A DNA stretch of 38,445 nucleotides from a virus. Shown piece by piece: positions 7,247 through 20,501 of this stretch (position 1 is the first letter of the stretch; each line of letters starts with the position of its first letter). The notes beneath the pieces are model-generated. The model ran no database searches. It worked only from the letters and a program-made list of their open reading frames with translations, and was not told the DNA's origin. A program made the translations under genes and the position numbers. Where the stretch lies: positions 1 through 38,445 of IMG/VR virus record IMGVR_UViG_3300035633_000149; one strand, written 5' to 3'.

Positions 7247-7648
7247 ATGGCTCAACTTAATGCAAAGCAGAAAAAATTTGTCGACGAATATGTGCGAAGT
7301 CGTAATGCGACACAGAGCGCCATAAATGCTGGATATTCTTCTGCCACTGCTCATGTGCAAGGTCCAAGGCTGTTAGGAAATGTTAGCGTTAAAGCTGAAC
7401 TCGATAAACGCTTGGCTCATGTGCGAGACGAATCACAAGTTACAGTTAAAAACGTCATCAATGAGTTGGCCAAAGGTGCCTTTGCCGAGCTGCCCATTGA
7501 AGAGATGAAATGGTCCGATAAACTTAAATGCTTAGAAGTCTTATCGAAGTACCTAGGGTTAATGGATGGAATTGGAGCACCTAAAGACAATCGAGACAAT
7601 GCCAAGACAAGACTTCTTGAATTGGTTGGAAGACTTAGTTCGCACTGA
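7247..7648 (+). CDS. terS: Terminase small subunit
   Basis: A 133-residue protein with the opening LNAKQKKFVDEYV...NATQSAINAGYS typical of the XtmA/Terminase_2 family: a helix-turn-helix that recognises the packaging start on phage DNA. The middle (VINELAKGAFAE) is the oligomerisation helix region, followed by KLKCLEVLSKYLGLMDG, a common C-terminal feature of the family. AGGGGAA precedes the ATG. It overlaps the large subunit by 83 bases. Confidence 0.9.
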   Translation: MAQLNAKQKKFVDEYVRSRNATQSAINAGYSSATAHVQGPRLLGNVSVKAELDKRLAHVRDESQVTVKNVINELAKGAFAELPIEEMKWSDKLKCLEVLSKYLGLMDGIGAPKDNRDNAKTRLLELVGRLSSH

Positions 7649-9239
7649 TGAAATCGAAGCGTCCGAAGAAGCAATTAGAATTAGGTGCCAGCACGACTTC
7701 GAGCTTTTCTGTCATATATTTTTTCCGCACTTTACTGAGCATCCATTTAACAAATTTCACCGTGACCTATTTGCGTTTTATGGACAATCTGAAGTGGCAA
7801 CTAGACGAGTGGATTGTGCGCCTCGCGGATATGCGAAGTCGACGGTTAAAAGCCTATTTAAGCCGGTCCACGACTTATGCTATGGATTACAACGCTATAT
7901 ACTCTTCATTAGTGCCACTCAAAAACAAGCAATTGGAAAACTTAAAGACATTAGGGCCGAAATACTTACTAACGATGCTCTTACTAGCATTTACGGAATA
8001 CGGTTTCCTCATAAGCGTCCGGCTGAACAGAGCTTTGAAGTCCTTACGGATCACGGCTCGGCTTACCTTCAAACGGTTAGTGCGGGCACTGAAATTCGAG
8101 GGATACGCTACCGGGAGGCACGGCCATCTAAGATTATACTCGATGATGTCGAAGACTCCGAAGAAGTCCAAAACGAAGAACTCAGAGAAAAAACAAGAAA
8201 CTGGTTCTTTGAAGTCGTCTCTAAGTTGGGAAATGAACGGACGGACATTGAAATAGTTGGCACCGTCCTGCACAGGGACTCGCTGCTAATGAACCTTTCT
8301 CGTAATCCAGCATACAAGACCAAAATCTATAAAGCAGTTATCTCATGGGCCGACCGTAAAGATTTGTGGGACGAGTGGCGACAAATATACGTGAACCTGG
8401 ATAACGATAACCGCGAAACGGATGCAAAAAAGTTCTACGAGGAACACAAGACCGAAATGGATCTTGGCACTGAAGTATTATGGCCAGAGAAAGAACCCTA
8501 CCATGCCCTAATGAAAGAACTCATCGAAACTGGTCGCCGTGCATTTATGAAGGAAAAACAAAACCAGCCATTGCCAAGTGGTGAGGCTTTGTTTGATGAT
8601 ATTTGGTGGTATAAAGAAGACCATGATCGCGGTGGCGTCGTAATTGAGAAGACTGGCGCATTTATTCCTTTCGAGGATATGCAAGCATTTGGAGCTATGG
8701 ACCCAGCTACTGGTGAAGGGAGCTCCAAAACTACTAAGCTAGACTATACTGTTATTGCGTCGGGTTATAAAGATTTGAAGGGCCGACTTTTTGTCCATAG
8801 AGACTGGACCAAAAGAGCAAAGCCTACTCGCTACATTAGAGAGATTTTTGAGCAGCACTTGTTAATGAAATATGAGAAATTTGCTGTAGAAACAAACCTT
8901 TACCGCGGTTTATTGTTGGAGAACTTACAAAGAGAGCGTAAATTGTTGGAAGCTGAGCGTAAAAAAAGTGGTTTAAAGGATTGGCGAATAACTATACCAT
9001 TTTACGAGATAGAAAGCCGCGAAAAGAAAGAGAAGCGGATTTTTACGCTTGAGCCCAAAGTTAATAATGGATGGATTCTATTTAATAAGAATCTAAGTGC
9101 GGAGTTTATGGAAATGATTGAAAATTTTCCTGTAGCAGATCACGACGACGCGCCGGATGCACTTGAGATGCTTTGGGGCTTGGTTAACAAGCGGTACAAG
9201 CCAAGTGCCCTTAATATATCGGCAATGGGGAGCGTTTAA
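7566..9239 (+). CDS. terL: Terminase large subunit (ATPase and nuclease)
   Basis: DNA packaging motor of 557 residues. The N-terminal ATPase has Walker A APRGYAKS at 85-92 and Walker B IILDDVED at 190-197. The C-terminal RNase H-like nuclease shows a first Asp in AMDPATGEG (about 377-385) and DDAPDALEM near 532-540. The ATG at 7566 lies inside the small-subunit gene with AGGG upstream; another ATG at 7599 would drop 11 residues. Full length for the family. Confidence 0.92.
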   Translation: MELEHLKTIETMPRQDFLNWLEDLVRTDEIEASEEAIRIRCQHDFELFCHIFFPHFTEHPFNKFHRDLFAFYGQSEVATRRVDCAPRGYAKSTVKSLFKPVHDLCYGLQRYILFISATQKQAIGKLKDIRAEILTNDALTSIYGIRFPHKRPAEQSFEVLTDHGSAYLQTVSAGTEIRGIRYREARPSKIILDDVEDSEEVQNEELREKTRNWFFEVVSKLGNERTDIEIVGTVLHRDSLLMNLSRNPAYKTKIYKAVISWADRKDLWDEWRQIYVNLDNDNRETDAKKFYEEHKTEMDLGTEVLWPEKEPYHALMKELIETGRRAFMKEKQNQPLPSGEALFDDIWWYKEDHDRGGVVIEKTGAFIPFEDMQAFGAMDPATGEGSSKTTKLDYTVIASGYKDLKGRLFVHRDWTKRAKPTRYIREIFEQHLLMKYEKFAVETNLYRGLLLENLQRERKLLEAERKKSGLKDWRITIPFYEIESREKKEKRIFTLEPKVNNGWILFNKNLSAEFMEMIENFPVADHDDAPDALEMLWGLVNKRYKPSALNISAMGSV

Positions 9240-10717
9240 TGGCGGAAACAAGACGCTGGGCCGGACTGGCCAGCAGATCAGAGCTGAAAGTGGCAAATAA
9301 CCTAGGCATTGTTCCTAAGCTACTTAATGACAAAGGTGCGAATAAATTTAGAAGAAAAGACCTTGATATTTACGACGCCTATTATGAGGGCCGGCAATAT
9401 GCGGGCATGACTCAGTGGAAGCAAGCAATGAACCCGGACGGATCTTATATTCCAGTCCGGGAGCGTGCGCCGCTTTTGCAATACAACTTTGTTAAGACAA
9501 TGTGCTCTAGGCTTTCTTCTAAGCTCGTCGGGGCCAAGAATTTTCCAAAATTCAAAGTAGAGGAAGATCCCGATACTGAGCAATATATTTCTATGGTTTT
9601 GAAAAGCTCTAAACTTAGGTCCAATATGGTTGAGCCCGTGCGCCGGATGTGCGCAAGTGGTTCAGCACTTGTAAGGTACTCAATTGTAAATGGAACTTGG
9701 AAGATTGACCACTATTTGGCAAAATGGTGCTTTCCGGAATTTGATGATAACGGAAATCTTCAGTCTGTAAAAATACAATATATTTATGAAGACAAAGAAG
9801 ACTTGGACGAAAGGAAGCTGCCCAAGAAAAAATGGTTCAAAATGGAATTGGGCCCGCAGCGTGATGTGCTTTATAATAACCCGGAAGTAAGTGATGTTGG
9901 TATTGAAGAACCTGTTTTTGAAGTGGCGAAAGTCGCAGACCACAACTTGGGATTCGTGCAAGCGGAGTGGCTACGAACAGCCAAGCAGCCAAACAGTATT
10001 GATGGGCCTAGCCTTGTTAGTGATATTCTGGGTTTTGTTGACGAACTAAACTATTCTCTTTCCCAATCTGCTCAATCAATCTCGTATAATCAAGATCCCC
10101 AGCTAATAGTCAAGGGGATGGACGAGGAGGAGCTTAGCAGCCTAATCCGTTCTGCTACCAAGGCATGGAACGTAGGGCGAGACGGAGAAGCTAGTTTCTT
10201 AGAGGCCGGTATGAACGGCACCGAAGCGGCTGGCGAGTTTAGGGAAATGGTTAAGCAGAAGATCCAAGATGTGGCTCGGGTTATTATGCTTGATCCAGAA
10301 AAAACCGTAGGCCATGCCCAAAGTGGTCGTGCAATGGAAGTATTGCATGGGCCAATGGTTGATCTAATTGAAGAATTAAAGCCTGCGTTAGAGCAATCAA
10401 TTCAGAACTTAGTTTTGAAAATGGCTTTAACTAATTTGATAGTGGCAGAGCGTGGCGGTATTGCGCCAATCAATGTGCCACCAGGCTATAAGCCAAAAAG
10501 CCTTAACCTTACCATTATGTGGCCTGATGTTTTTCCAAAAACAATGCAGGACTTACGGGACAAAGTTTCAGTTGCGGTGCAAGCTGCTAGTGGAAACCTT
10601 ATTTCTCGTAAGAGCATGACTAAGTGGCTGGCAAAAGATTTTGATATTGAAGACATAGAGGCTGAGCTTGAAGAGATTGCTACTCAGCCTATTATTAACC
10701 CATTTGGAGCGTTTTAA
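9239..10717 (+). CDS. Portal protein
   Basis: A 492-residue protein immediately after the terminase (1-base TAATG overlap). Features typical of portals: an N-terminal segment describing the outer wing (DIYDAYYEGRQYAGMTQW), LSSKLVGAKNFPKF, a central helical stem region (DGPSLVSDILGFVDELNYSL) and a late segment with QSGRAMEVLHGPM. It forms the dodecameric ring through which DNA passes. The identification rests on these patterns and on position. Confidence 0.88.
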   Translation: MAETRRWAGLASRSELKVANNLGIVPKLLNDKGANKFRRKDLDIYDAYYEGRQYAGMTQWKQAMNPDGSYIPVRERAPLLQYNFVKTMCSRLSSKLVGAKNFPKFKVEEDPDTEQYISMVLKSSKLRSNMVEPVRRMCASGSALVRYSIVNGTWKIDHYLAKWCFPEFDDNGNLQSVKIQYIYEDKEDLDERKLPKKKWFKMELGPQRDVLYNNPEVSDVGIEEPVFEVAKVADHNLGFVQAEWLRTAKQPNSIDGPSLVSDILGFVDELNYSLSQSAQSISYNQDPQLIVKGMDEEELSSLIRSATKAWNVGRDGEASFLEAGMNGTEAAGEFREMVKQKIQDVARVIMLDPEKTVGHAQSGRAMEVLHGPMVDLIEELKPALEQSIQNLVLKMALTNLIVAERGGIAPINVPPGYKPKSLNLTIMWPDVFPKTMQDLRDKVSVAVQAASGNLISRKSMTKWLAKDFDIEDIEAELEEIATQPIINPFGAF

Positions 10718-11176
10718 ATGAAAGATAATAAAGGCGGAGTTAGATTTATTCGTAAAAACGGCAGAGTCATTCCTATTCGTGGCGACAAATACAAGGGTGG
10801 CGCAAAAAGAAGTGGAATGAAGAAAAGAAGAAAGTCCTCTGGTTATAAGACGCAAAAAAGGGGAGTTGGTGAGCGAGCTAAATATGGAGCAAGAAAAGGC
10901 TTTGAATTCGGTGCAAAAATTGGTGGAGCTGTGGGTGGAATTGGAGCCGCAGCCAGTCTTGCATCAGGAAGTGGTCAAATATCCAGACAATTTTCTAGCA
11001 TTCGTGGCGGAAAAGCAAAAGCTCTTTACGCAATCGGCGCAGCAGGTGGTGCAGCTCTAGGTACTGGTTTTCGTGCGGCAAGTGGAGCAATAAAAACTGG
11101 TATTGCTGGAGCGGCACTTGGAGCAGCAGGAAGTGCTGCATTTGGAAGACGAACAAAGAAGAGAAAGAAAAAATAA
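10718..11176 (+). CDS. Motif-cluster protein 1: basic, Gly/Ala-rich
   Basis: A 152-residue protein. Residues 8-21 are the shared motif VRFIRKNGRVIPIR. A Lys/Arg-rich linker follows, then two Gly/Ala-rich stretches (about 65-85 and 105-145) with small residues spaced as in glycine zippers, and a very basic end (RRTKKRKKK). Such segments often insert in or cross membranes. It starts directly at the portal stop. It is not recognised as a named family; it could be an internal head or ejection protein. Confidence 0.6.
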   Translation: MKDNKGGVRFIRKNGRVIPIRGDKYKGGAKRSGMKKRRKSSGYKTQKRGVGERAKYGARKGFEFGAKIGGAVGGIGAAASLASGSGQISRQFSSIRGGKAKALYAIGAAGGAALGTGFRAASGAIKTGIAGAALGAAGSAAFGRRTKKRKKK

Positions 11177-11207
11177 AAACTCTACAAGATTTTAAGTGAG
11201 CGTTTTA

Positions 11208-11693
11208 ATGGCTAAAGAACATACAGACAAACAAGGAAACAAATTAAGATTTATTCGTAAAAACGGCAAGGTCATTCCCATTAGGGCCAAAAGTGGAAGA
11301 GGATATACTGGTGTTAAAGCCATGAAGGGAAAGAAAAAAGGCCGTTTTACTCGTACAAAAAAAGGTGGAGTCTTTGTTTCTAAAGGTGCCGACAAAAGAA
11401 TGAGTGAGTCTGGCAAAAGAGGAAGCTCTGCTGGATTTAAAATTGGCGGAATTTTAGGTGGTGGTGCTGCCGGCTATATGTTTGCAAATACTCCAAGAGG
11501 CAAGGGCGTAAGTAAACTTGGAGCAGCACTTGCTACAGCAGTTGGAGTTGGTGGTGCAGCTCTAGGTGGCGGAATAGTTGGAGCTGCTGTTGGTAGAGTT
11601 AAAGGCAGAAGAAGGCAGGCCAAGAAAGAAATTAAAAAGGGTAATATTGCAATTTATAGAAAGCGGCAAAAAGCTAGCACAACGGGTATGTAA
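11208..11693 (+). CDS. Motif-cluster protein 2: basic, Gly/Ala-rich
   Basis: A 161-residue protein if it starts at ATG 11208; a GTG at 11196 would add 4 residues. The motif LRFIRKNGKVIPIR is at residues 13-26. Gly/Ala-rich hydrophobic stretches follow (GGILGGGAAGYMFA and AVGVGGAALGGGIVGAAVG), then a basic C-terminus. Same plan as the previous protein (motif, basic linker, glycine-zipper pair, basic tail), so the two are likely paralogues. Confidence 0.6.
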   Translation: MAKEHTDKQGNKLRFIRKNGKVIPIRAKSGRGYTGVKAMKGKKKGRFTRTKKGGVFVSKGADKRMSESGKRGSSAGFKIGGILGGGAAGYMFANTPRGKGVSKLGAALATAVGVGGAALGGGIVGAAVGRVKGRRRQAKKEIKKGNIAIYRKRQKASTTGM

Positions 11694-12187
11694 TGGCACA
11701 ACAAAGAAAAAAAGGTCAAGTCAGATTTATAAGAAAGCGTGGCCGTATTATTCCAATTAGGTCTAATAAGAACACAAGGGCAGCGGGAGATATATTCTCA
11801 AAAAAAAACTTGCCAGCATTAGCTACCATTGGCGCGGCTTCTGGAGCAGCATTTGGCGGCTTATATGCGGCTGGGCGCGCTCAGAAAAAGTCTAATAGTC
11901 TTTTAAAAGTTGGAAAGACTGCAAAAGCGAATTCACTAAACCGAATGGCTAAGGTTTTAAAGTTTAAGTCTAGGGCAGTTCCTGCAATCATTGCTGGGAC
12001 GGCACTTTTATCTATTGATAGACGTTCAAGAGATGAAGGCACTGTTTTTGATATTGGAAACACTAAAGGGGCTTTTAATGTGGCCACCACATTGGGCTTG
12101 GGATACTTGGCCGCTAGAACCGGAAAGCGTTTTGAAAAGTGGGGACTTCGTGGCGGTAAATTTCCCTGGAAGTTGAGGGATATATAA
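11693..12187 (+). CDS. Motif-cluster protein 3: basic, Ala-rich
   Basis: A 164-residue protein with the motif VRFIRKRGRIIPIR at residues 10-23. Small-residue hydrophobic stretches lie near 39-61 (ALATIGAASGAAFGGLYAAG) and near 97-111 (VPAIIAGTALLSI), with a third weaker one near 130-145. Starts at TAATG after the previous gene. Related by motif and layout to its neighbours. No known family recognised. Confidence 0.6.
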   Translation: MAQQRKKGQVRFIRKRGRIIPIRSNKNTRAAGDIFSKKNLPALATIGAASGAAFGGLYAAGRAQKKSNSLLKVGKTAKANSLNRMAKVLKFKSRAVPAIIAGTALLSIDRRSRDEGTVFDIGNTKGAFNVATTLGLGYLAARTGKRFEKWGLRGGKFPWKLRDI

Positions 12188-12697
12188 ATGCCATTAGGAT
12201 TTCAAACTAGGACAATGAAAAAAGGCGTTCAAGAGGAGCGCCAATTTACAGAGCCGGCAATTCGTTTTCGTATGATTAAGGGCAGAGTTGTTCCTATATA
12301 CAACAAAAAAAGAATTGGTGAGATTACAGAAAAATATTCTGCAAGGGCTGTGGGTGCTGGTGCTGCAATTACAGCGGCTGGCCTTATGAAAACCCGGGCG
12401 AGAAAAAAGACTTCTGCGTTTTTAGCAAAACGAGGAATAAAATCTAAAGATTTGAAGTTTACTTTCAATCAAAATAGTGGCTTTTCCAAAATGATGAATA
12501 AAAGACCAAAAACTAAGTTTATAGCCAAGTCTTTAGCTAAGGTTTCAAAAGGAGCTGTGAAAGCTGCATTTAGCAAGAGAGTTGGCCTTGGATTGCTTGG
12601 AGCTGGATTGGTAGGAACTGAAGTTGGCATCGAGCTTCAAGCAAGAAGTCCTTTTGGATATGACGTTGGGGCTGGCGTAAAAACGGGAAATAAGTAA
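12188..12697 (+). CDS. Motif-cluster protein 4
   Basis: A 169-residue protein. The motif, IRFRMIKGRVVPIY, is displaced to residues 25-38 by an N-terminal extension. The final residue is Tyr rather than Arg or Lys. Small-residue stretches follow (VGAGAAITAAGL near 55-67, and VGLGLLGAGLVGTEVGI near 130-150). The region between is Lys/Arg-rich. It appears to be a more diverged paralogue of proteins 1-3. Confidence 0.6.
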   Translation: MPLGFQTRTMKKGVQEERQFTEPAIRFRMIKGRVVPIYNKKRIGEITEKYSARAVGAGAAITAAGLMKTRARKKTSAFLAKRGIKSKDLKFTFNQNSGFSKMMNKRPKTKFIAKSLAKVSKGAVKAAFSKRVGLGLLGAGLVGTEVGIELQARSPFGYDVGAGVKTGNK

Positions 12698-13308
12698 TGG
12701 AAAGAAAAAGACAAGATGTTGTTTTTCGTAGGGTAAGAGGCAGAATTGTTCCTATAAAACGTAAAAAAGGCCAATCAAGAAAGGCTCCAAAAAGGTTTGA
12801 CCCTACACGTAGAAGTAGATCCCAAAAACGAAAAGATAGAATAACAGGCTTTTCATTACTTGGTTCAGGATTATTAGGAGCTGGTGCCACTGGATATGCC
12901 TCTGGTCGTTTATTTAGAAAAGGCGCTGCCGTTGGTCAAGAAATTCAAAGTCTAACAATGGGAGCCGACATTGTTAATAGAATGCGCGGGGTAGATCCAA
13001 GACTACAACGCGATGTTAGCCGAAATATGCTAGGCCTTGCGGGCAGAAGATTGCCTAAGTTTGGTCGCACCATGGCCACATCAAAAGCTGGATTGGCACT
13101 TGCTGGTAGTAGCTTGTTATTTGGTGGTGTTGCTGGTGAAGGTGTTACAAGGCTATTTCAGTCAACGCAGCAAAAGGAAATTGGATCTGGTGAAGCAATT
13201 GGTTCGGCAATTGTTGGATTGGGCGTTGGAAAAGTGGTTGAAAAAAGTTTTAAAAAAGGTGTTGGCAAAAAGCTATTAAAGCGAATTCTTACTAAGGGCC
13301 GCATATAA
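12697..13308 (+). CDS. Motif-cluster protein 5
   Basis: A 203-residue protein, the longest of the cluster. The motif VVFRRVRGRIVPIK is at residues 8-21, followed by a highly basic linker (SRKAPKRFDPTRRSRSQKRK). Three Gly-rich hydrophobic stretches are visible: LLGSGLLGAGATGYASG, LALAGSSLLFGGVAGEG and IGSAIVGLGVGKVV. Starts in a TAATG overlap and ends in a 1-base overlap with the next gene, implying coupled, perhaps stoichiometric, expression. Confidence 0.6.
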   Translation: MERKRQDVVFRRVRGRIVPIKRKKGQSRKAPKRFDPTRRSRSQKRKDRITGFSLLGSGLLGAGATGYASGRLFRKGAAVGQEIQSLTMGADIVNRMRGVDPRLQRDVSRNMLGLAGRRLPKFGRTMATSKAGLALAGSSLLFGGVAGEGVTRLFQSTQQKEIGSGEAIGSAIVGLGVGKVVEKSFKKGVGKKLLKRILTKGRI

Positions 13309-13850
13309 TGTTTGCACCAGGTTCACAGCCAGAAGGCGACTTAGTTAAAAACAAAAACGCCAAGCCAATTACTTTTGTAAAGAATAAGGGGCGGCTTTCT
13401 TTGCGCATGGGCAATAAGAAAGTGGGCGGGGCAAAAATGGTAAATGAGCGGCTTGCAGAAATGAAGGCAGAAATTAAGCAGGCAGAAGCTGGCCGAGCTG
13501 TTACTACAATGAAAGATACAGGACCAGGAAGCCCAGAGTTTAAACGCTATGGGATTAAATCCACTTTCCCCACTTGGTTTAGGCAAGAGGGATACAGCTC
13601 AAAAAAAGATTTTTTGAAGGTTATCAATAGCAGGAAGGGCAAGAGATATGAAAGGCTTGTTAAGAGGGCTATTGGGGATCTTAGTAATGGTTATTCTTCC
13701 AGTTTTGGCCGCGTACCTGCTAATGATGATTTTCTTGTGAAGAGTCGGCAGCGGTTTAATAACAAAGGTGTTACGTTTAGGTATATAGACGGTAAGGTTA
13801 GGCCAATGCGTTTTGGTGGGCGTCCGCGGTTAGAGGAGGCTCCTTTTTAA
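13308..13850 (+). CDS. Motif-cluster protein 6: motif at both ends
   Basis: A 180-residue basic protein without glycine-zipper stretches. A clear copy of the shared motif, VTFRYIDGKVRPMR, is near the C-terminus (155-168). A weaker look-alike, ITFVKNKGRLSLRM, is near the N-terminus (21-34). The middle is charged and helical. Moving the motif from the N- to the C-terminus suggests that it works as a portable tag rather than as part of one fold. Confidence 0.55.
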   Translation: MFAPGSQPEGDLVKNKNAKPITFVKNKGRLSLRMGNKKVGGAKMVNERLAEMKAEIKQAEAGRAVTTMKDTGPGSPEFKRYGIKSTFPTWFRQEGYSSKKDFLKVINSRKGKRYERLVKRAIGDLSNGYSSSFGRVPANDDFLVKSRQRFNNKGVTFRYIDGKVRPMRFGGRPRLEEAPF

Positions 13851-14356
13851 TGGCAAAAGGTAAGCTATTAAAATTTAAAGGGCGGTTTAAGTTTGTGAAG
13901 GATTACGACCTTCACTTTGGAATTGCTCATGGTAAATTTAGAACGGCTGCTGGCAACGCATTATCTGCTGACAGAAGAATTCGATCTATTAAGGTAGCAA
14001 GAAATACCTATTCTGCGTCACGAAAAAACTATTTTAAAAATACTAAAGGCAAAATGGGCGTAATGAGCTTAGACCTATTTACTAAAGGTTTAGCCAAGCG
14101 TTTAAATTGGGATATGGGCACAGCACTGGCCAGTCAAAGAAACGTGGAATTGTCTAGAGCTGGGCAATTAAAGAAGCTGGCAAAAATGCGAAGAGATTCT
14201 GGAAAGCAAGCGGTTAAATCTCGTCGTGAAATGAATAATTTAATTAAGCCAAGGTCTAATCCTGACAGAATGGTAAATGCCAGAAGCAAAGGCGTAATAT
14301 TTAGATATGTAAAAGGCCGTGGGCTTGTGCCAATGCGACCAAAGAAAAAAAGGTAA
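13850..14356 (+). CDS. Motif-cluster protein 7: C-terminal motif
   Basis: A 168-residue, very basic protein. The shared motif appears at the C-terminus (149-163: VIFRYVKGRGLVPMR, one residue longer than the others), followed by PKKKR. There are no clear membrane segments. The high Lys/Arg content suggests contact with DNA. Last member of the cluster, 3 bases before the MuF-like head gene. Confidence 0.55.
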   Translation: MAKGKLLKFKGRFKFVKDYDLHFGIAHGKFRTAAGNALSADRRIRSIKVARNTYSASRKNYFKNTKGKMGVMSLDLFTKGLAKRLNWDMGTALASQRNVELSRAGQLKKLAKMRRDSGKQAVKSRREMNNLIKPRSNPDRMVNARSKGVIFRYVKGRGLVPMRPKKKR

Positions 14357-14359
14357 CGC

Positions 14360-15199
14360 ATGGCCTTTTTTGAAGACTCGACTGTTACAGAAACAATTGA
14401 TAAGACCATTAAAAGAGTTGAGCGCCTTGAGGAGGAGGAGCAAAAAAAACTCTTAAAGGTGTTTCAGCGTGTCAGAAGAGAATTACAAGACCGATTGCTC
14501 ACAATTCCACCAGGAACTTTCTCCGAGCAACAAGCAAATGTCACACTTGTTCAAGTTACGGCTGCAATTGAAGCAATTAAGCGTGATCTTAGAGGGCAAA
14601 TGGTTGAGTCCTCAGAAATCCTCGCCAATCGTGGAATTTCCGATCTGGTTGAAGAAATCGAAAAGTTCCAAAAAGAATTTGAAGGAATAGTGCAGCCCAT
14701 ACCCATTGATAGGGTGGTGGTGGCCACAGAAACAAATAGATTCTTGCTTAATAAATACCAGGCCTCAATTGATGCCTACGGCGAAGGCCTGCGCTCACAA
14801 ATTACTTCCAGCATAGTTACAGGCCTGGCAGCTAGAGACACCACAGAGAGAACCGTGGAGCGCCTAGTGGCCGATGTTGGCCGCTTCTTTATCGGTGAAG
14901 AGTGGAAGCTACGACGCATTGCACGAACAGAATTACATAACGTCTACAACTTTTCAAAGCTGCGCGGAATGCAGACAATAGCACAGGAAACGGTGCCTGA
15001 TTTGAAAAAAGCGTTAGTTCATCCGATTGATGGAAGGACTGGCGAGGATTCTATGGAGCTTGCTCGTAAGAATCCAGTTGTGGACATAGATCAGCCTTTT
15101 CGGTTTAAATGGAAGGGTGATACTCGGGTTTTTATGTTCCCGCCGGATAGGCCGAACGACCGAGCTATTATGATCCCTTACCGAAAGGCTTGGGATTAG
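14360..15199 (+). CDS. MuF/SPP1 gp7-like head morphogenesis protein
   Basis: Minor head protein of 279 residues. The N-terminal two thirds are helical and coiled. The C-terminal part shows the MuF pattern: RIARTELHNVYNFSKLRGM, then HPIDGRTGEDS, then PFRFKWKGD and PPDRPNDRA. In the usual family the last two segments carry Cys (DxRTCxxC, HPNCRC). Here those Cys are absent (Gly/Asp instead), so the usual metal or disulphide feature is lost. It probably sits inside the head near the portal. AAAGG lies upstream of the ATG. Confidence 0.8.
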   Translation: MAFFEDSTVTETIDKTIKRVERLEEEEQKKLLKVFQRVRRELQDRLLTIPPGTFSEQQANVTLVQVTAAIEAIKRDLRGQMVESSEILANRGISDLVEEIEKFQKEFEGIVQPIPIDRVVVATETNRFLLNKYQASIDAYGEGLRSQITSSIVTGLAARDTTERTVERLVADVGRFFIGEEWKLRRIARTELHNVYNFSKLRGMQTIAQETVPDLKKALVHPIDGRTGEDSMELARKNPVVDIDQPFRFKWKGDTRVFMFPPDRPNDRAIMIPYRKAWD

Positions 15200-15240
15200 T
15201 TACTAATAACGGGCCAGATGCCCAAAAAGGAGTTATAGTT

Positions 15241-15945
15241 ATGGATACAGAAGTCAGTGCAGAAACCCAGGTGGTGGAAACACAAGCAACGGTAGACGCT
15301 CAGGCAGCAGAAACCTCACATCAAGAAACCCAAGCGGCTCCTGGTGAGCGTGACCTTGGTTGGACGGATGAACAGAAGGCCTACATTGAAGGTCTTCGCA
15401 AAGAAAGTGCGAAATACAGAAGTAGAGCAAAGAACCTTGATGGCGAATTGCAGTCTGTAAATCAGCGGCTTTCTAAATTCGAGTCTGGATTAAAAAATAT
15501 GTTTGGAGGGGAAGAAGACCAGGAGTTGACCCCAGAAGAAACTATTTATCAGTTGCAGGCTCACAATGAGGCTTTAGAAATGCAAAACGCCATTACTGAA
15601 GTCGCGTTGGAATATGGTGTAGGTGCCCAGGATATGGGATTTTTCCGTTATTTGCTTAACGAAAGAGCGGCAGTGATGGAAGAGGGCGAGGAGCTGACAG
15701 AGGATGATCTAGAAGAGATTATTTCCGAAGTTAGGGCCAGAGGTGGCCAGCCAGCTAACACTAGCGTTACGGGTGACGTAACAGCAAGTGGCGTTGATTC
15801 TCCTGAAGCTGACTCAGGTGATGGAGTTACTTTTGAGCAATTCCAAACTATGAGCCTTGGCGAAAAATCAGCTCTCTACCAAAAGAGCCCGGACCTATAC
15901 AATAGACTAGCGGCGGCTGCAAAAAAGGCGCGTGTAAGAATTTAA
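15241..15945 (+). CDS. Capsid scaffolding protein
   Basis: A 234-residue acidic protein rich in Glu, Gln and Ala. Residues about 40-95 (WTDEQKAYIEGLRKESAKYR and onward) form the charged helical core seen in phage scaffolding proteins of the DUF4355 type, followed by an acidic helical middle and a basic end (AAAKKARVRI) suited to binding the capsid protein. The start at 15241 is preceded by AAGGAG at 8 bases; an upstream TTG at 15190 lacks such a site and would overlap the MuF gene. It lies directly upstream of the major capsid gene. Confidence 0.8.
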   Translation: MDTEVSAETQVVETQATVDAQAAETSHQETQAAPGERDLGWTDEQKAYIEGLRKESAKYRSRAKNLDGELQSVNQRLSKFESGLKNMFGGEEDQELTPEETIYQLQAHNEALEMQNAITEVALEYGVGAQDMGFFRYLLNERAAVMEEGEELTEDDLEEIISEVRARGGQPANTSVTGDVTASGVDSPEADSGDGVTFEQFQTMSLGEKSALYQKSPDLYNRLAAAAKKARVRI

Positions 15946-15955
15946 GGAGTAAATA

Positions 15956-16795
15956 ATGTCTACTGTAAGTACGGATTTTGTTTTTGAGCCCAAGGTGTGG
16001 AAAGACCACATTGCGGCATATTTTGACGATAAACTGCTTTTTGGTGCAATCGCTATGCGCGACGAGACCCTAAAAGCTCAACCAGGCGAAACAATCAACT
16101 TCCCTTATTTCAATACAATTGGGGCCGTTGAGGAGCCTGCGGAAACTGCCGCTTTGGCTGTGGACAAGCTAGCAGATGATAGCTTTCAGTCTACAGTGAA
16201 AGAAGTTGGTAAGGCCGTTGGTGTTAAAAAGAAGGCTTTCGTTGTTTCAGCAGCTCGTACAGAGCGAATCATTCAGGAAATCACTGCTCAAATGGGCCGT
16301 CGTCATGCTGAGAAAATTGACGATGATCTTTTGGCTGAGTTTTCTGGTGCTGGTAACTTTGCCACCACTTCAGTTGGTGCTGGAGCTACAGTTCAAAAAA
16401 TTAACCAAGGTAAAGTCACCATTTTCGGCGACAAGCACACAGATGCAATTGCCCTACAAATTAACAGTCTAGACCTTTTGTCTGTTGTTAATGACACAAC
16501 TACCGGCTTCCTAAAAGCAGATGCGAATGATCCAATGATTCGCGTTCCTGGTTTTATGGGCCGCTTGTTGGGTATGGCAGTTTTTGAAACTGACAAAGTT
16601 CCTGCTGGAAAGTGCTATGTGCACAAGCAAGATGCTTATGGCTTTATTGTTAAGCAAGACCTAGAGCTTGAAAGTGACTATGACGTGCTTAACCGTGAGT
16701 GGGTATTTACTTCTACTCAATGGTATGCAGTTAAGTCATTCCACGCTAAGATTGCCGTTGATGATCTTAAAACGGGTGAAATTGTATTTGCTTAA
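15956..16795 (+). CDS. Major capsid protein (N4 gp56-like, HK97 fold)
   Basis: A 279-residue protein. The opening (VFEPKVWKDHIAAYFDDKLLFGAIA) and the segment PGETINFPYFNTIG followed by an acidic region resemble the N4 gp56-type major capsid family, which has the HK97 fold. Position after the scaffold and before the connectors agrees. The ATG has TAAGGAGTAAATA upstream, one of the best ribosome binding sites in the window, as expected for an abundant protein. A strong hairpin follows the gene. Confidence 0.88.
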   Translation: MSTVSTDFVFEPKVWKDHIAAYFDDKLLFGAIAMRDETLKAQPGETINFPYFNTIGAVEEPAETAALAVDKLADDSFQSTVKEVGKAVGVKKKAFVVSAARTERIIQEITAQMGRRHAEKIDDDLLAEFSGAGNFATTSVGAGATVQKINQGKVTIFGDKHTDAIALQINSLDLLSVVNDTTTGFLKADANDPMIRVPGFMGRLLGMAVFETDKVPAGKCYVHKQDAYGFIVKQDLELESDYDVLNREWVFTSTQWYAVKSFHAKIAVDDLKTGEIVFA

Positions 16796-17815: not shown

Positions 17816-18025
17816 ATGAAAGACGAAATGACTAAAGGTTTTTGCATGAAGCCTACTTCTGCCTACAATTCACAAAAGCCGGTTGGCAAGCAAGGTGCTG
17901 GCCAAGCTGACATGGCAGGCGCTCCTGTTGATGCAGTTTCAAAGCCTGGTGTTATGCCTCGTAAAATGGGCAGCATGAAAATGGGTGGAATGCAGGGGCC
18001 AATTCAGCCTAAAGTTGGTAAGTAA
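17816..18025 (+). CDS. Unknown Met/Gly/Pro-rich 69-residue protein
   Basis: Low-complexity protein with many Met, Gly, Lys and Pro and a segment MPRKMGSMKMGGMQG. It is predicted disordered, with no known motif. AAAGGGG lies shortly before the ATG. It is embedded in the neck gene run, so it may be a minor virion or assembly factor. Confidence 0.5.
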   Translation: MKDEMTKGFCMKPTSAYNSQKPVGKQGAGQADMAGAPVDAVSKPGVMPRKMGSMKMGGMQGPIQPKVGK

Positions 18026-19067: not shown

Positions 19068-20501
19068 ATGGGAATTTTTAGAACAAACGACCCTACACAA
19101 TACGATGATATTGATGGAATCATCATAGATGAAACGGCTCCACCGCCAAGTATTAGTGGCGTTGCTGCTAACATTGCTATTCTTGTTGCTCAGTTTGAGC
19201 GTGGTCCCGAAGGTCTGGTAGAAGTAACAAGCGATCCCGAGCTTAAAGAGCTTTATGGTGGCGCTACTTCTTCAGGAATGAAACAACTAAAAAACAAGCG
19301 TTTTGGTCGTTTAAAAATTTCCCGAGCTGTAGCTTCAGATGCTGCGGCTTCTACTCTTTCCCATGATGCTAAGGTGCAATTCGATGCGCTTTACAAAGGT
19401 GCTTACGGCGACAATTTGTCGGTTGTTGTTGAAGCTGGAACTGCACAAGGTTCTAAATATATTTTCAACGACGGAAACCCTAAAGCCCAAGTGGTCCAAG
19501 AAATTTACGACAACTTGCTAATTGATGAAATTACTCCTGCCACTTTTGCCGGCTCTAAGTTGATGAAGGTAACAGTTTTGGATGCAGGTTCTGGTGAGCC
19601 CGCGGCTTTGGCTGAGACTAACTTAGCAAGTGGTTCTGATGGCACATTGGCCGACACTGATTATGAAACTGCAATTGGTTATTTGGCTGTTGAAAAAGCT
19701 GGTAACGTAGTATTCTTAGACGAGTACAACGCCACTAGAAACGGATACCTAAAAACCCATGCAGCAGATACACAAGACAAAATGGTTATTGTCTGCGGAG
19801 CGCCCGGTGATGATCGAGCTACTGCTATTGCCGATGTGGTTAATTATCGCGACGCTGATGGGCGGATTATTTATTCTTGGCCTTATGTTAATACCACTAT
19901 TGACGGCGCTCAAGAATTGGTTCCACCGGCTTCTTTTTACGCAAGTGTAATTTCCCAAACGTCTCCCCACATTGCTCCTTCATATACTCAAAACACTCAA
20001 TACCTTTCTGGAATTACAAGTCTTGAGTATGAGGAAAGCCGAAACGGTTACATTGCTCTAGATGCCGCTGGTATTAGTGCAATGGAGCTTGACCGTGACG
20101 TTGGTTTCCTAATTAAAAATGCTGTTGTGACACAAATTATTAACAGCTCCAAAATTACAGTTTTGCGTCGTCGAATGGCCGACTTCTTAACTAATTCTAT
20201 TGGCTTTTATTTGAAGGCTTATCAGAATGATGTAAACAGTCGAGAAAAACGTGATGAAGTTAAGTCTTCTATCGTTGCCTTTGACGACGGTTTAATTTTA
20301 GAAAAAATCCTACCTGGAGCCCAAGACGTGAAAGGCGGAAGCCCACGTCTAGTTGATACTGAGTCAGAAAACACTGATGAAAGTATTGCTCAAGGTAAAT
20401 TCATCATTCTTTACAAGCGTCGCATTTTCAGCTCTATGCGCTACATTGTGCTAAAAGCTGAGATTGGCGAAAGCGTAGTTGTAACAGAGCAAGAGGGGTA
20501 A
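19068..20501 (+). CDS. Contractile tail sheath protein
   Basis: A 477-residue protein. Typical sheath features: a start with IIIDETAPPPSISGVAANIAILVAQFERGPEG, insertion of a variable middle domain, and a C-terminal part containing SGITSLEYEESRNGYIALDAAGI and RRRMADFLTNSIGF. It forms the contractile layer around the tube. Starts with a GAGGAGTAATAA site. This gene fixes the window as a myovirus-type phage. Confidence 0.92.
   Translation: MGIFRTNDPTQYDDIDGIIIDETAPPPSISGVAANIAILVAQFERGPEGLVEVTSDPELKELYGGATSSGMKQLKNKRFGRLKISRAVASDAAASTLSHDAKVQFDALYKGAYGDNLSVVVEAGTAQGSKYIFNDGNPKAQVVQEIYDNLLIDEITPATFAGSKLMKVTVLDAGSGEPAALAETNLASGSDGTLADTDYETAIGYLAVEKAGNVVFLDEYNATRNGYLKTHAADTQDKMVIVCGAPGDDRATAIADVVNYRDADGRIIYSWPYVNTTIDGAQELVPPASFYASVISQTSPHIAPSYTQNTQYLSGITSLEYEESRNGYIALDAAGISAMELDRDVGFLIKNAVVTQIINSSKITVLRRRMADFLTNSIGFYLKAYQNDVNSREKRDEVKSSIVAFDDGLILEKILPGAQDVKGGSPRLVDTESENTDESIAQGKFIILYKRRIFSSMRYIVLKAEIGESVVVTEQEG

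Follow-up and report, generated by a model that had tools for sequence, protein, structure and literature searches.

As a rule, only virion proteomics reveals which proteins travel in a phage head and are injected, and common targeting sequences are known for few phages (T4, whereas P1 gave no consensus). The ejection proteins of T7 and P22 come from the head region and exit together with the DNA; some of them contain hydrophobic segments. Among the internal proteins of T4 the capsid-targeting sequence is the sole common feature (PMC3012670), and in P1 residues 1–30 of DarB suffice for packaging, no consensus packaging signal having been found among the Dar proteins (PMC9024508). Peptidases, ADP-ribosyltransferases, protein kinases and GNAT acetyltransferases are protein-acting domains of the polyvalent proteins that phages inject, as described by Iyer and colleagues (PMC5512222). 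Here we describe a 14-residue motif, hereafter the tag, that recurs at the ends of proteins encoded by seven consecutive open reading frames (ORFs) of the virus record IMGVR_UViG_3300035633_000149, between an SPP1-like portal gene and a MuF-like gene, and at the ends of many proteins in related contigs. The window analyzed is the whole record of 38,445 bases. In this family of uncultured viruses of bacteria the tag most likely serves as an address by which proteins that manipulate the host are loaded into the virus particle and so injected.

Compared with the described systems, the tag would work like the signals of T4 and P1 yet lies outside the T4 class. As in the T4 proteins IPI–III and Alt, a short segment is the only feature common to diverse injected defence or effector proteins (PMC3012670, PMC5694885); here it is shared by 255 distinct proteins, whose internal location we infer, in approximately 164 body clusters, 130 of them single. 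However, the T4 sequence is N-terminal and is cut off by the prohead protease gp21, whereas the tag occurs at either end, is probably a hairpin, is followed by no conserved site for removal, and belongs to an SPP1-type head; family searches detected no head protease in the head module of the window. P1 DarB offers the parallel of a short terminal signal for head loading, the difference being that one consensus here spans hundreds of proteins. The MuF polymorphic toxins share the locus and the head-borne delivery of enzymes, including toxins (PMC5576092), but there a single toxin is joined to the complete MuF domain, whereas in the window MuF is a separate, untagged gene without a toxin extension, the MuF family has no match in the tagged proteins, and a tag of 14 residues is carried by many proteins. 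The polyvalent proteins found in phages and conjugative elements combine, in single chains of 2–15 domains, ART-PolyVal (PF18760), kinase, GNAT and peptidase domains (PMC5512222), a repertoire that recurs in the tagged proteins by profile match for ART-PolyVal and GNAT and by motif for the kinase-like and protease-like candidates; here the effector-type proteins are separate and small, with one domain each in about 60–350 residues. As for the T7 and P22 ejection proteins, head-region origin and hydrophobic segments are alike and exit with the DNA is assumed here, but there is no match in Pfam or PHROGs and the content of the tagged set varies strongly between relatives. The expectation that no described family would fit the whole set held in Pfam, PHROGs, NCBIfam, the phage records and the literature searched.

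A short motif at protein ends

The original prediction had placed one copy of the motif in each of the seven genes. When IMG/VR was scanned with two patterns, 19 and 24 contigs were retrieved, the translation of which revealed many further tagged ORFs, with the tag always close to a terminus, and a 14-column profile was built from these tags. In this profile F, R, G and P are nearly invariant. It recovers six sites in the window at 16.7–48.0 bits, the next best six-frame position scoring −2.2, and across 22 related records, with 1105 gene calls in all, 80 proteins reach a score of at least 12, as against none among shuffled or reversed proteins. Because the profile was trained on tags selected by pattern, the independent test is a sample chosen blind to the tag. 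In particular, a MuF profile identified 281 relatives in IMG/VR, the best 80 of the 281 were taken, and 70 of these were informative, having at least 1 kb upstream. Tags were present in 65 of the 70, on the coding strand in every case, a figure that counts contigs and not independent lineages because the 80 include some contigs already retrieved by the motif as well as a few near-duplicates; there were no matches in 5346 reversed ORFs and none on the opposite strand. The original observation holds, and the tag reaches beyond the seven genes.

Tags sit at protein ends. In the combined set of 255 proteins, 215 carry the tag at the N terminus, 31 at the C terminus and 9 at both, and no tag lies more than 40 residues from an end. 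For 86 tags from gene calls the largest end distance is 24 residues; uniform placement predicts that only 27 of the 86 would be that close. N-terminal tags often begin at the initiator methionine or 4–7 residues past it (ORF starts were assigned mechanically, so leader lengths are approximate). Placement also changes within a body family, the tag being N-terminal in seven GNAT members and C-terminal in one. Since C-terminal tags occur, a signal peptide, or any mechanism limited to the N-terminal end, is ruled out.

Within the window the tag is unmistakable in five genes, where it is N-terminal as predicted; in gene 6 a weaker tag stands at the C terminus, and gene 7 has at that end a variant lengthened by one inserted residue. 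The weak N-terminal look-alike noted earlier in gene 6, ITFVKNKGRLSLRM, is present and scores −12 bits alone; we read it as a decayed tag because it lies exactly at the position of a perfect tag in the orthologues. Consistent with this, alignment of the gene 6 family reveals tags at the N terminus, the C terminus or both, with decay at one end. The gene 7 variant, VIFRYVKGRGLVPMR, is the sole case of its kind in the whole data set (none in the reversed control), no orthologue of gene 7 was found among the relatives mapped, and gene 7 is the least certain tag carrier of the seven.

The tag is probably a small basic β-hairpin of the form VxFxRx-[N/R/G]G-[RK][VI][VI]PI[RK], a reading that draws on the usual turn pair (N-G, R-G or G-G), which fits a tight hairpin turn, and on structural models of low to moderate confidence. 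An AlphaFold2 model of gene 6 (mean predicted local distance difference test score, pLDDT, of 78; near 71 at the C-terminal hairpin) has predicted strands at residues 21–26/29–34 and 155–160/163–168, that is, β-hairpins at both tag sites; its fold had no match at E ≤ 0.001 in PDB or among viral models. Synonymous codon identity between tags within a phage is 0.402 against 0.396 expected, and this lack of above-expected agreement indicates that selection acts on the peptide and not on the DNA. A DNA-level repeat or shufflon is ruled out by the same test and by the absence of any tag-bearing tandem repeat. Tag identity, out of 14 positions, is 8.64 within one phage and 8.38 between unrelated tags, and similarity follows neither phage nor body family; because tags of the same phage are scarcely more alike than unrelated ones, the tag would present a recognised surface common to the clade.

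Islands, charge and domains of the tagged proteins

The gene order in maps of the relatives is TerL, portal, MuF, scaffold, capsid, neck and sheath, a portal gene being present in 21 of 26 tag-bearing records. Tagged genes are limited to three islands, between TerL and portal, between portal and MuF, and directly before the neck gene. Island content is highly variable between relatives and the flanking genes are conserved; in these maps the tag is found in none of the conserved structural proteins.

The tagged bodies are strongly basic, with a median of +20, and the untagged genes of these islands are neutral or acidic. With the tag removed, 79 of 79 are net positive, with a median charge of +22 versus −5 in structural proteins (P=5e-44), and per 100 residues their median is +12.2 as against −1.3 in 20 untagged island genes. 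The very basic character that had been ascribed to the first five window proteins extends to all seven (net charge +23 to +37). Small head-linked proteins lying among packed DNA would require such a charge; the lysines of T4 internal proteins touch DNA phosphates (PMC3012670). Untagged, neutral accessory genes of the islands (L079:4444-7140 and L103:15012-15974) include, by eye, collagen-like repeats, a GDSL-like protein and a glycosyltransferase-like protein, and might serve surface or capsid decoration.

Two kinds of body recur. Gly/Ala-rich hydrophobic proteins are common and include glycine-zipper matches in Pfam and NCBIfam. In the window, as had been predicted, hydrophobic segments are a property of genes 1–5 (19-residue hydropathy maximum 1.24–1.71) and not of genes 6 and 7 (−0.18 and 0.28). 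The second kind comprises enzymes. ART-PolyVal (PF18760) lies above cut-off in two tagged ADP-ribosyltransferases (L133:6873-7616, E=1.6e-17; L079:1400-2122, E=2.9e-11), and several tagged proteins are GNAT acetyltransferases (best E=3.1e-07), with profile matches to solved GNATs; in L042 the score for PF00583 is 31.1 bits against a cut-off of 20.7, a family-level match with the acetyl-CoA loop. The zinc-protease motif HE[ILM]GH occurs in seven tagged proteins and had no significant profile match, so that the label rests on the motif; kinase-like motifs of the DxHxGN type occur in four, again with no profile match. One further candidate is papain-like and matches NLPC_P60 or LRAT weakly, and there are weak ATP-grasp matches; a similarity to ribosomal protein L36 (E=0.33) was put down to chance. 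Taken together, this enzyme set resembles the repertoire of injected phage effectors.

What the tag may do

We consider it likely that the tag is an end-independent capsid-targeting hairpin for injected cargo. The proposal of a capsid-targeting or packaging signal has good indirect support from a strictly terminal yet movable tag on unrelated basic bodies, from its restriction to the head islands and from its presence on effector-type enzymes. In this scheme the portable tag would dock, from either end of the cargo protein, on one conserved head-assembly partner (scaffold, portal or MuF), and the cargo, whose genes form islands next to those for portal, MuF and neck, would lie as very basic proteins among the packaged DNA and exit with it. 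Gly/Ala-rich hydrophobic cargo might help in crossing the envelope, and single-domain enzymes (ADP-ribosyltransferase, GNAT, zinc-protease-like and kinase-like) would act on the new host. The first candidate for the receptor is the acidic probable scaffolding protein, followed by portal and MuF; it is conserved in 19 records with a median net charge of −12, and in the window it has no PHROG match. The broader statement, that this is a universal cargo address of the whole phage lineage, such that a hairpin at either end suffices for loading into the head, the injected proteome can be read from sequence and effectors are acquired by gain of a tag, seems to us evenly balanced. If true, the injected proteins of hundreds of uncultured phages could be recognised by one motif. 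New effector families would come to light, since about 130 bodies are without a relative even inside the collected set, and a small tag usable at either end would be at hand for loading proteins into capsids.

Several observations weigh against capsid targeting. No tagged phage is in culture, and none was found in the phage records searched. Five of the 70 contigs have no tag: in three (L153, L175 and L176) another motif occupies the same place, and two (L154 and L178) have no such cargo gene; since some loci of the clade do without it, a head can be made in its absence. The basic charge might just as well stem from an affinity for nucleic acid inside the cell, and the kinase and protease labels are based on motifs, the kinase-like model having a pLDDT of 40.

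The tag could instead be an assembly motif, its hairpins binding tagged proteins to one another to form an internal core and then a trans-envelope channel, with the enzymes as accessory domains; T7 gp14–16 and P22 gp7, gp16 and gp20 are core or channel proteins of this type. We think this unlikely. Tagged Gly/Ala-rich hydrophobic proteins come several to a phage, a 19-residue stretch of hydropathy at least 1.2 is found in 70% of tagged bodies as against 44% of structural proteins, and the glycine-zipper matches point the same way. However, relatives differ greatly in how many tagged proteins they encode and share no constant group of partners, the sequence covered contains just one tagged gene in several phages (G004 and G002), many tagged bodies are stand-alone enzymes, and a contractile tail already supplies a tube. 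The conduit put forward in the original prediction suits only the part of the set made up of Gly/Ala-rich hydrophobic proteins, common as these are; many other tagged proteins are enzymes or soluble and basic.

Alternatively, and with little probability, the tag might be an address within the host, binding the membrane, nucleoid, RNA polymerase or ribosome after entry or late in infection and having no role in packaging. Basic hairpins are frequent binders of nucleic acid, the bodies are basic as well, and a head-adjacent location reveals the timing of a gene and not the position of its product. Yet the tag is almost invariant although MuF is only 35–67% identical to that of the window, which suggests a phage-encoded partner, its similarity is independent of phage and body family, and tags are found in the head module only, whereas cytoplasmic factors would be expected among the early genes.

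Common descent without function, by which the tagged genes would be paralogues with a hitch-hiking conserved end, would account for contiguous genes of similar Gly/Ala-rich and Lys-rich composition, but it is very improbable and here largely refuted by body clusters that include unrelated enzyme folds, by tags that switch ends within families, and by codon identity between same-phage tags that equals chance, so that no trace of recent duplication remains. Least probable is a processing signal for a head protease, of the kind by which the prohead protease removes targeting sequences in T4 and giant phages (PMC5694885): downstream of N-terminal tags only a short K/G-rich linker is conserved, conservation beyond it (about 0.2–0.4 bit per column) reveals no residue that could mark a cleavage site, and this part of the original prediction is also left unsupported by the C-terminal tags and by the head module, in which family searches detected no protease.

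The window phage, its relatives and a second motif

The coordinates of the island genes, their tags and their neighbours are collected in Table 1. The uncultured phage of the window combines an SPP1-type head with a contractile tail, its tail sheath gene marking it as a myovirus; a neck protein gene lies between the capsid and sheath genes. Immediately before the neck gene, at 17816-18025, is an ORF of 69 residues that resembles short Gly/Lys/Met-rich ORFs at the same position in several relatives, ending near P-K-x-G-[KR]. No family in Pfam, PHROGs or NCBIfam was assigned to the seven island proteins, although gene 2 has a weak match to Gly-zipper_Omp (E=0.032, below cut-off). Orthologues of gene 3 were found in L017, L030 and L045, and of gene 4 in L030 and L045. 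The gene 5 family, which is Gly/Ala-rich and usually lies close upstream of MuF, is the most widespread body family and perhaps the only tagged protein that comes close to belonging to the core.

Table 1. Head-module genes and tags of the window, and cargo genes with the second motif in other contigs
Feature	Coordinates	Strand	Remarks
Terminase large subunit (TerL)	7566..9239	+	Flank; PHROG 38, E=3e-83
Portal protein, SPP1 gp6-like	9239..10717	+	Upstream flank of island; PF05133, E=1.3e-16
Gene 1, 152 residues	10718..11176	+	Charge +34; Gly/Ala-rich (39%); N-terminal tag
Gene 1 tag VRFIRKNGRVIPIR	10739..10780	+	47.4 bits
Gene 2, 165 residues	11196..11693	+	Charge +36; C-terminal half Gly-zipper-like; N-terminal tag
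Gene 2 tag LRFIRKNGKVIPIR	11244..11285	+	39.6 bits
Gene 3, 164 residues	11693..12187	+	Charge +29; N-terminal tag; body cluster 2
Gene 3 tag VRFIRKRGRIIPIR	11720..11761	+	48.0 bits
Gene 4, 169 residues	12188..12697	+	Charge +28; N-terminal tag; body cluster 6
Gene 4 tag IRFRMIKGRVVPIY	12260..12301	+	32.9 bits
Gene 5, 203 residues	12697..13308	+	Charge +35; N-terminal tag; body cluster 0 (13 members)
Gene 5 tag VVFRRVRGRIVPIK	12718..12759	+	43.1 bits
Gene 6, 180 residues	13308..13850	+	Charge +23; no hydrophobic segment
Gene 6 N-terminal decayed tag ITFVKNKGRLSLRM	13368..13409	+	Aligned with intact orthologue tags; predicted β-hairpin
Gene 6 C-terminal tag VTFRYIDGKVRPMR	13770..13811	+	16.7 bits; predicted β-hairpin
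Gene 7, 168 residues	13850..14356	+	Charge +37; no hydrophobic segment
Gene 7 C-terminal variant tag VIFRYVKGRGLVPMR	14294..14338	+	One inserted residue
MuF-like minor head protein, 279 residues	14360..15199	+	Untagged; downstream flank; PHROG head morphogenesis, E=7.5e-06, and others
Probable scaffolding protein, acidic	15190..15945	+	Position between MuF and capsid genes
Major capsid protein, SPP1 type	15956..16795	+	PHROG 544, E=3.9e-40
Tail sheath	19068..20501	+	PHROG 23, E=2e-19
Cargo gene with second motif	L175:900-1604
Cargo gene with second motif	L176:4270-4974
Cargo gene with second motif	L153:4111-4689
Cargo gene with second motif	L153:1767-2555

Among cultured relatives the nearest portal stands at 26% (Komagataeibacter phages), the nearest capsid at 33% (Streptomyces phages) and the nearest sheath at 24% (an Alicyclobacillus phage), and the tag is absent from all three regions scanned in them. 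The sole genuine match in a genome is a phage-sized contig of 45 kb (G026:C285, with L092 and L093) in a metagenome-assembled genome of the Chitinivibrionales, which are a possible host of the clade; 167 other genomes of the same phylum gave no match.

The three untagged contigs with another motif encode a cargo gene that carries GSRGGHIIGHTKSGAPIYG or a similar sequence at its N terminus. This motif, GSRGG[HK]II[GR]xx[KR]xGxP[IV]Y, is hairpin-like, starts portal-adjacent cargo genes and shares the G-x-P-[IV] end of the main tag; it is possibly a second class of targeting tag. An ORF of 677 residues from a different phage (L180:10917-12950, − strand) contains two copies of the GSRGG type, GSRGGHQIGSTKSGKPIY and GSRGGHIIGHTKSGAPIYG.

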